The position numbers were made by a program, and so were the translations under genes. From Nitrospirota bacterium (lineage in GTDB: Bacteria > Nitrospirota > Nitrospiria > SBBL01 > JAADHI01), in the NCBI GenBank assembly GCA_029261195.1, contig JAJDBU010000066.1:1-50275 (forward strand): a stretch of DNA of 50,275 nucleotides. The letters are read 5' to 3'. A model generated the notes under the pieces. It did no database searches, was not told the origin of the DNA, and saw nothing but the letters and a program-made list of their open reading frames with translations. Positions 47,378-50,138 of this stretch are shown here, piece by piece. Positions within the stretch are counted from its first letter, which is position 1. Each line of letters begins with the position of its first letter.

Positions 47378-48016
47378 ATGAGTTTAATGCGACAGGAAAA
47401 TGATTTCCTTCAGGCGAAATACGGCATCACCGCCTGGTGTTACGACATCCTGGACTACCCCTGGGAGCGACAGTATCGAAGGTGGCGACCCGAATTACTG
47501 AAGGACATCCGTGGTGAAGTCCTTGAAGCGGGGGTCGGAACCGGAAGGAATCTGAAGTACTATCGCCCGGATGTCCATTTGACCGGGATTGATTTAAGTC
47601 CTGCCATGTTGAAGCGAGCGAAAAAGCGCGCCGGAGATGCCCAATGTCAGGTCAGTCTTAAGCAGGAAGATGCGACGCTGTTGTCCTCAATTCCGTCGAA
47701 TCAGTTCGATTGGATCTTCTCAACCTTCATCTGCTGCGTCATGCCCGACCCCTTGCAGCCGATGGCGATAGCGCAGTTCGGCCGGGTGCTGAAGCCGGGA
47801 GGGCGTTTTCGATTACTCGAAATGATCTATTCACAAAATCCGAAAGAACGGAAAAAACAGGAACTTTTTGCTCCTTTTGTTGAAAAGGTTTTTGGTGCCC
47901 GTTTTGACCGGAACACCCTGAGCTACCTACATGAATCAGACAGGCTGAAAGTCACCAACACGACTTTTTTAAAAAAAGATATCTACCTGCTTATGGAGGG
48001 TGTCTGTGAAAAGTAG
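47378..48016 (+). CDS. Class I SAM-dependent methyltransferase
   Basis: The 212-residue enzyme has motif I EAGVGTGRNL, acidic strand GIDLSPAML and motif IV-like DWIFSTFICCVM, of the UbiE/COQ5-like fold. The substrate is unknown: quinone, small molecule or metalloid are possible. It lies 9 nt after the dihaem cytochrome gene, so probably the last gene of that unit. Confidence 0.85.
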   Translation: MSLMRQENDFLQAKYGITAWCYDILDYPWERQYRRWRPELLKDIRGEVLEAGVGTGRNLKYYRPDVHLTGIDLSPAMLKRAKKRAGDAQCQVSLKQEDATLLSSIPSNQFDWIFSTFICCVMPDPLQPMAIAQFGRVLKPGGRFRLLEMIYSQNPKERKKQELFAPFVEKVFGARFDRNTLSYLHESDRLKVTNTTFLKKDIYLLMEGVCEK

Positions 48017-48071: not shown

Positions 48072-48395
48072 TCAAATCGAACGATCCGGAAAGAGCAAGG
48101 TGAGCGATTTTGCGAGAACGTCGTTGATGACTCTTGGTGACACTTCACTCTTTTTCTTTGCATCACGTGCTTTCCAGTCCAGACTTTTCACTTGATCCGC
48201 TAAGACAACGCCATCAATGCCATTAAGAAGATCGTCTAAACTGTATTCCACTGCAACGTGTGGCAGGAGGACGATTTTGCCACCTTCGACATTCATCTCA
48301 AGCACGTCATTTGATTCTACCCCGACCTGTTCTGCAATGTTCTTAGGAACACGCACCGCCAAGCTATTTCCCCACTTCTGAATTTTTGCTTTCAC
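48072..48395 (-). CDS. Orphan MazE/AbrB-family antitoxin
   Basis: A 107-residue protein with the MazE N terminus KIQKWGNSLAVRVPK. The start is set at GTG 48395 because a strong aggaggag ribosome site precedes it. The last ~40 residues do not look like normal MazE ends, and no MazF toxin gene follows, so the module seems incomplete. It stands next to a truncated methyltransferase. Confidence 0.75.
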   Translation of the reverse strand: MKAKIQKWGNSLAVRVPKNIAEQVGVESNDVLEMNVEGGKIVLLPHVAVEYSLDDLLNGIDGVVLADQVKSLDWKARDAKKKSEVSPRVINDVLAKSLTLLFPDRSI

Positions 48396-48470
48396 CGTTC
48401 TCCTCCTCATGCAACTATGTAGACACATTGTTTATACTGGCAAGGCCCATATGGAGTGTCAACTTTTTAG

Positions 48471-49151
48471 ATACACGCGACCTTAGACGAATCGGATGAA
48501 AATGAGTCCAACAGGCGATATAAAACCTATGGCGATTTTTCTAAACTCAACGCTCGATGGAACAATACACATTCCAGAAAAACTCAAAAACGCTTAGCCG
48601 AACATCCAGAAGAATGGTGTTTTTACCATACAAGATTATTAGAGCAGGAAAAAACATGGCAGGTTGTCCCACGGAATCAATGCGTAAAACACCTTCAAGA
48701 AAATCTGCCCAGAGGATCGGTTGTCGCAGATTTTGGCTGTGGGCAGGGAAAGCTCGCAGAAGAACTGAAAGAGTTTCATATCGTGCATTCATTTGATCAT
48801 CTTGCGATTCACCCCGGTATTGTTACAGGTGATATGTCCCATACTCCGCTTGATGACGGAAGTATCGACGCAGCAGTGTTCAGCCTATCGCTTATGGGGA
48901 CGAATATCGGAGATTACATTTCTGAAGCATATCGAGTCTTGAAACTGGGAGGACAACTGATCATTTGGCATCCAGCAAAACATAGCAACAGGAGTCAATT
49001 CGTAGAAGACCTGAAGAAAAATGGTTTTGCTATTGTCGAGGAAGGGCAAATCTACAAGTGGCATCGCATCTGGGCCATTAAGCAAGCCAGAAGAACGAAT
49101 GATATTGTAGATGCCAAACTGGATTTCAGAAATCAAACGAATGACATTTGA
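48471..49151 (+). pseudogene. 5'-truncated Rrp8-like rRNA methyltransferase
   Basis: An open frame from 48471 encodes about 226 residues but has no usable start codon until GTG 48780; an in-frame stop is just upstream (48468). The product strongly resembles the C-terminal methyltransferase of eukaryotic Rrp8 (m1A in large-subunit rRNA): YKTYGDFSKLNARW, FYHTRLLEQEKTW, VADFGCGQGKLAEEL, HSFDHLAI, GDMSHTPLDDGSIDAAVF and SLSLMGTNIGDYI. It looks as if the gene's 5' part was lost, perhaps from a larger protein. Translation from ATG 48783 would lack the SAM motif. Confidence 0.75.
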
Positions 49152-49244: not shown

Positions 49245-49271
49245 ACAGGACAAGCGCGTTTATGGTATAGT
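49242..49271 (+). promoter_or_regulatory. Probable promoter of the cold-shock gene
   Basis: GTGACA (49242-49247), 18 nt, TATAGT (49266-49271). Transcription near 49278 would give a leader of about 138 nt before the GTG at 49416, the kind of long leader seen in cold-inducible csp mRNAs. The leader has long T-runs. Confidence 0.5.
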
Positions 49272-49415
49272 CACCTCAGGTTCAGAGTTGGAAAGTGAAT
49301 AGGAAAAATAATTTGCTGGAGTTTTTTTTTAATTGGCAACATTTTTTTTGTTTATTTAGAGAACTTTGAACATTTCGTCAGCAAAATACTAATAACAAAA
49401 CAGGAGAAATAAACA

Positions 49416-49619
49416 GTGAGTACAGGAACAGTAAAATGGTTTAACGGCAGCAAAGGCTTTGGATTTATCACGCCCGAGGATGGAGATGATGTCTTCGTCC
49501 ACTTTTCAGCTATTACCGGTGACGGTTACAAATCCCTTGATGAGGGCGATAAAGTCGAATTCGATATCACACAAGGCCAGAAAGGTCCGCAAGCCGAAAA
49601 TGTAAGTATAGTTTCCTAA
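49416..49619 (+). CDS. csp: Cold-shock protein (CspA family)
   Basis: A 67-residue nucleic-acid chaperone. RNP1 KGFGFI and RNP2 VFVHF are intact ([15 protein letters not shown]). The start is GTG, with caggag 9 nt upstream. It is transcribed alone and closed by a strong terminator. It melts RNA structure, at low temperature or generally. Confidence 0.97.
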
Positions 49620-49638
49620 CAAGGATTTTATTGAATTG

Positions 49639-49681
49639 AAAAAGCCCCACCGGAATATTATTCCGGTGGGGCTTTTTTTTA
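49639..49681 (+). terminator. Strong factor-independent terminator after csp
   Basis: A stem of about 17 bp (aaaagccccaccggaat and its complement) around att, followed by eight T. Effective in both directions. Confidence 0.95.
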
Positions 49682-49703: not shown

Positions 49704-50138
49704 TGATCCTCCCCTAAAAAAGTGGACTTGGAGTAAAGTCGTTGGTATTAAAACGACTGGAGGTTCAGATGAGTGTTCAAGGCAGAAGAAAATACGATCC
49801 GGAATTTAAAAGAAACGCAGTTCGCCTGAGTGAAGAAGCAGGCCGAACAGTTCACAAGGTTGCGGAGAACTTAGGTGTAGGCAGTGCGTTGATCTATCGT
49901 TGGCGGCAGCAAGAGCGAGAGCATTCTGAACTTGCCTTTCCTGGAGCTGGGAAAATGGCGTTGACTCAAGATCAAAAACGGATTCGAGCATTAGAAAAGC
50001 AACTGAAAGATACGGAAATGGAAAGAGATGTATTAAAAAAGCCCTGACCATCTTCAGCAGGATATCGAAATGAGATACAAGTTTATTGAGAAGCACCGCT
50101 CCTCATTTCCGATAAAGAAGATGTGCCGCGCCTTTAAA
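49704..50138 (+). mobile_element. IS3-family insertion sequence, 5' part only
   Basis: The left end begins about 49704 with tgatcctcccctaaaaaagt, typical of IS3 family terminal repeats. orfA and the start of orfB follow. The element appears to be interrupted near 50138 by another IS end. Confidence 0.8.
49769..50047 (+). pseudogene. IS3-family transposase OrfA, frameshifted near its end
   Basis: A 92-residue protein with HTH (KYDPEFKRNAVRL, VAENLGVGSALIYRW) and a leucine-rich coiled coil (ALEKQLKDTEMERDVLKK). ATG 49769 has ggagg upstream. It stops after LKKP, but one extra A in the six-A run would give LKKALTIFSRISK and end at 50071-50073, overlapping the ATG of orfB as usual. So a 1-nt loss, or a programmed slip, is implied. 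Confidence 0.8.

Follow-up and report, generated by a model that had tools for sequence, protein, structure and literature searches.

A start-less Rrp8-like methyltransferase frame in a Nitrospirota genome as a probable remnant of a bacterial helicase-methyltransferase fusion

Why does a bacterial genome carry an open frame that resembles Rrp8, a protein regarded as a ribosome enzyme of eukaryotes, and why does that frame have no start codon? The question arises from a contig of a Nitrospirota bacterium (JAJDBU010000066.1; its entire 50,275 nucleotides are referred to here as the window). The original prediction had described a bacterial copy of a eukaryote-type gene that was transferred and decayed, perhaps from a larger fusion. 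The features relevant to our analysis are:

48072-48428, minus strand: in-frame deletion fusion of MazE and MazF, with the native GTG start at about 48395
48429-48475, no strand assigned: mazEF upstream region, recognisable in three same-family genomes and holding the TAG at 48468-48470
48471-49151, plus strand: Rrp8-like methyltransferase frame without a start codon, the probable 3' remnant of a helicase-methyltransferase gene
48476-48483, no strand assigned: join at which mazEF upstream DNA meets inner sequence of a helicase-methyltransferase gene, placed by sequence comparison
About 48729-48743, plus strand: SAM-binding motif I, DFGCG, residues 87-91
48828-48830, plus strand: codon 120, Gly here and Cys in the three nearest relatives, in more than 90% of the family and in human RRP8
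About 48882-48905, plus strand: Rrp8 signature SLSLMGTN, residues 138-145
49128-49151, plus strand: seven-codon extension past LDF, where the nearest relatives end [LIV]xF-stop
49257-49640, plus strand: cold-shock (cspA) region native to the host family, on the right flank, with the gene at 49416-49619

The frame comprises 226 codons (48471-49148) followed by a TGA stop (49149-49151). The Rrp8 segments named in the original prediction (DFGCG, DMSHTPLDDGSID and SLSLMGTN) are all confirmed, as is the absence of a start before them: the in-frame TAG at 48468-48470 directly precedes the frame, and the first ATG, GTG or TTG is the GTG at 48783, already within the domain. Pfam assigns residues 21-207 to PF05148 far above chance (133.6 bits, E=1.2e-38, for a curated cut-off of 27 bits); no generic methyltransferase model reaches 39 bits, and PHROGs provides weak methyltransferase matches at most. 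The best solved relative by sequence is human RRP8/nucleomethylin (2zfu, E=7e-29). A structure model built on the window frame together with 34 relatives, with two plasmid-record rows left out (mean pLDDT 89.7), retrieves 2zfu first in Foldseek (E 1e-18; next family 2e-8), and a second structural aligner gives 2zfu a Z score of 28.8 (202 residues, rmsd 1.9 A) and every other family 16.6 or less. Since 2zfu is far ahead of every other family, the domain is assigned, by sequence and predicted structure, to the Rrp8 family (PF05148) and not to the generic SAM methyltransferases; a common bacterial methyltransferase family, which would have spoken against the prediction, was not found, the next structural families being 12 Z units behind. 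The likeness to Rrp8/nucleomethylin extends to the methyltransferase fold, motif I, the SLMGTN signature and the N-terminal helical part. Rrp8/nucleomethylin, however, is a eukaryotic m1A methyltransferase of large-subunit rRNA, whereas the intact relatives found here are bacterial and contain an SNF2 motor and zinc or HTH modules; the window copy, unlike eukaryotic Rrp8, is truncated.

The full-length bacterial homologues whose N-terminal domains the original prediction proposed to look for do exist, and the suspected larger fusion is borne out, as the complete members of the clade are helicase-methyltransferase fusions. These proteins are 1,000-1,800 residues long, with the Rrp8-like domain forming the C-terminal 215 or so residues. 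Pfam places either HTH-like segments or as many as seven treble-clef zinc fingers (DUF4379) at the N-terminus, DEAD/ResIII/SNF2 plus Helicase_C domains in the middle and PF05148 at the C-terminal end. In 56 of the 76 strong loci a single open reading frame encodes both the methyltransferase and a Walker A motif (51 frames that meet a stricter pattern and five further long frames with Walker A); in the others the helicase is in split frames (5/76), the locus is cut by a contig end (7/76) or the form is short (8/76). An alignment of 38 full-length proteins shows no variation in Walker A, in the motif II DE or in the Q, R and R of motif VI. The full-length member L053 was also modelled (pLDDT 80); the model resembles SWI2/SNF2 remodellers, and its C-terminal end matches 2zfu. 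The SNF2-type motor and the N-terminal modules, present in these relatives, are missing in the window copy.

The closest relatives of the window frame are all bacterial: L038 from Binatota (72% identity over 209 residues), L039 (60%) and L040 (59%). When seven relatives were compared with the window by tblastn, all alignments started at base 48471, and nothing corresponding to their preceding residues (about 1,000) was found in the window. The N-terminal 1,189 residues of L040 had no match in the whole source genome, although the same query detected members in four other genomes at 39-57% identity; PF14311 was not found in the source genome either, and neither the helicase nor the treble-clef part survives there. 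DNA upstream of mazE in three same-family genomes corresponds to the window as far as about 48475, DNA homology to L038-L040 begins at about 48483, and protein homology resumes at TLDE, at about 48480. The end of one match and the onset of the other place the join at 48476-48483, and the TAG stop and opening codons of the frame accordingly belong to the region upstream of mazEF. These comparisons show a window copy that has lost about 1,000 codons, through an illegitimate join that put the remainder behind the mazEF upstream region. The missing start is thus structural and is not explained by a sequencing error. The join gave no RNA structure signal (z 0.34), and a promoter scan revealed no clear excess. 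A programmed frameshift from a 33-codon open reading frame at 48497 was also considered and rejected, as the conserved YGDFSKLNARWN is already encoded alongside it in the methyltransferase frame.

How far the remnant has decayed is less simple. The window copy retains every residue that at least 98% of the family share, and its codon positions still diverge in the manner of a constrained gene, which suggests that truncation and decay are recent or that the domain may still be used. A branch-specific codon model was set aside, as synonymous sites were saturated and branch lengths implausibly large. The decay that had been proposed is nevertheless supported: codon 120 has changed from Cys to Gly, the old stop appears to have been lost, judging from the extended C-terminus, and the terminal branch is twice that of L038 (0.34 versus 0.16). 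The main alternative is a shortened but functional enzyme: translation from a non-AUG start would still produce the domain, which would work by itself as a bacterial Rrp8-like methyltransferase. The 226 codons free of frameshifts and stops, the retention of every strictly conserved residue, the visible codon constraint and the few bacterial loci with short forms that have their own start (L047, L077) agree with such an enzyme, but the sole near-cognate start of the ATN/CTG kind ahead of the domain, the ATA at 48471, lies in mazEF upstream DNA and has no recognisable ribosome-binding site, and neither the C120G change nor the lost stop favors continued use; we regard this alternative as improbable. 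The window copy is dead or nearly so, and with good confidence we consider the frame a recent 5'-truncated remnant of a horizontally acquired fusion gene, most likely untranslated.

The surroundings of the remnant bear on whether the join is real. The original prediction placed the frame between an orphan MazE and IS elements. The first of these is really a MazE/MazF fusion, in which the N-terminal part of MazE is joined to the C-terminal part of MazF; about 258 bp of the relatives' mazEF are missing at 48216-48223, and G006 (L141) and G003 (L143) contain separate genes for MazE (79-80 residues) and MazF (113-119 residues). The mazEF gap and the frame join are therefore two deletion-type scars less than 300 bp apart. 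On the other side an IS3-type transposase fragment (49742-50047) is indeed present, but the cold-shock gene separates it from the frame. The contig end (50135-50275) is an IS terminus of which the genome holds about twenty further copies (96-100% identity), most of them at contig ends, so a single IS breaks up the assembly. A draft of 77 contigs, many of them ending in this IS, and a locus 1.1 kb from the contig end could point to an assembly chimera with the complete gene elsewhere. Against this, no helicase or treble-clef part occurs anywhere in the 99% complete genome, in which the L040 search was backed by a working positive control, and, with both flanks native to the host family, two separate false joins would have to be assumed. 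We consider a chimera very improbable and the join most likely genuine. The region directly upstream of the mazEF remnant (47378-48016) encodes another class I SAM methyltransferase, unrelated to the Rrp8-like one; its homologues in G005 and G007 occupy different contigs from mazEF wherever mazEF was also found.

The distribution of the family argues for transfer, as had been proposed, since no further copy was detected in 396 genomes drawn from the Nitrospirota phylum. Our pattern-based scan, which covered 84,980 species genomes, revealed 71 loci, of which some 62 count as strong. Three clear family members are on plasmids, and viral contigs contributed 14 matches with the methyltransferase query and 18 with the whole-protein query, the contigs with the fusion including ones of 362 and 379 kb; the viral scan returned nothing with the window protein as sole query. 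In a tree whose bootstrap is not fully settled, the window copy groups with L038 (support 96/95), and this pair is joined by the full-length L039 and L040 (97/100). The window methyltransferase domain is, as judged from this tree, a member of the bacterial fusion clade. That the gene is a copy of a eukaryote-type gene therefore does not hold, since the frame sits in the bacterial clade with identities of 59-72%, versus about 33% to human RRP8, which formed a long branch without a resolved position when its placement was attempted. Movement of a eukaryotic RRP8 gene into the bacterium, to which the eukaryotic occurrence of the family and the human protein as best solved match had pointed, is extremely unlikely given the bacterial nearest relatives at 59-72% identity, the strongly supported clade and the SNF2 motor and treble clefs to which these relatives are joined.

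The local copy is a remnant, and it is the family of intact relatives that is of interest. Within one Myxococcota/Acidobacteriota clade, the fusion gene has a same-strand partner of about 1,060 codons at 12 loci; the end of the partner lies close to the start of the fusion gene or runs into it. Three of these 12 partners were scanned and proved to be MmeI-like type IIG or DrmMI-like proteins with the methyltransferase, spacer and target-recognition domains of MmeI; a simple pattern found no consistent D...ExK nuclease motif. The partner is confined to one clade and so counts as one evolutionary association. Outside this clade no other convincing neighbour recurs in at least three loci, shared phage genes excepted, and no further gene recurs beside the pair of fusion and partner. 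The plasmid and viral locations, together with the MmeI/DrmMI-like neighbour, suggest a role in restriction or counter-restriction. In the intact parent, the N-terminal treble-clef zinc fingers or HTH segments would bind DNA, the SNF2 motor would translocate on it and the C-terminal Rrp8-like domain would methylate a base. By analogy, we give roughly even chances to the parent being such a DNA-binding, translocating and base-methylating methylase-helicase dyad of restriction or counter-restriction. Since eukaryotic Rrp8 acts on rRNA (PMC6085284), RNA is also a possible substrate of the intact fusion.

Several known systems resemble this arrangement. DarB-type polyvalent proteins couple an SNF2-type motor to a methyltransferase, and translocation with methylation has been proposed for them (PMC5512222). 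The likeness lies in the methyltransferase and SWI2/SNF2-type motor within one protein, on phages and plasmids (PMC5512222). DarB, however, contains an N6-adenine methyltransferase and LPD36 ahead of the motor, whereas the methyltransferase described here is of the Rrp8 type and C-terminal; the scanned fusions gave no Pfam match to an adenine methyltransferase domain, which places them outside the DarB type. In DISARM and ARMADA, PglX-like methyltransferases are paired with BrxHII/RapA-like helicases (PMC12458937). Class 1 DISARM, type 3 BREX and ARMADA share with our family the SNF2-like motor and, in one clade, the adjacent MmeI/DrmMI-like methyltransferase (PMC12458937, PMC12839542), but the motor of the fusions, unlike theirs, carries an Rrp8-like domain. 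The PADLOC DrmD/BrxHII helicase models match the fusions over about 60-150 residues only, and with no full-length helicase match and no core set among the recurrent neighbours, the fusions do not belong to DISARM, BREX or ARMADA. We regard the intact family as one form of the methylase-helicase dyad already known, with the window copy as its remnant.

The treble-clef/SNF2/Rrp8 fusion family is apparently undescribed. No PADLOC, NCBIfam or PHROGs model describes the whole protein, and Rrp8 is not mentioned in PMC12839542, PMC5512222 or PMC12458937. In the open-access literature we found no paper naming bacterial Rrp8-like proteins, which is weak evidence as subscription papers were outside the scope of the search. 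A bolder reading is that the fusions form an undescribed class of DNA-modifying methylase-helicases in prokaryotes, serving defence beside the MmeI-like gene and counter-defence on phages and plasmids, and that eukaryotic Rrp8 descended from that pool of prokaryotic conflict proteins; we hold this as tentative and rather doubtful. An Rrp8-type methyltransferase on a DNA motor would, if true, bring a new methyl chemistry to phage-host conflict, and a bacterial, plasmid and viral family would offer a possible prokaryotic source of a conserved rRNA enzyme.

The scans also brought up some unusual members of the family. Two Planctomycetaceae MAGs contain short stand-alone Rrp8-like frames with their own starts (L047:9962-10612 and L077:2444-3082), the former having the top PF05148 score in this analysis (176.6 bits). 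L093, in a Prochlorococcus genome, is very divergent, with a terminal branch of 2.08. In Trichocoleus FACHB-40, contig52 carries a full-length member (L078), and a second 5'-truncated copy (L045:9566-10639) consists of the end of the motor and the methyltransferase.
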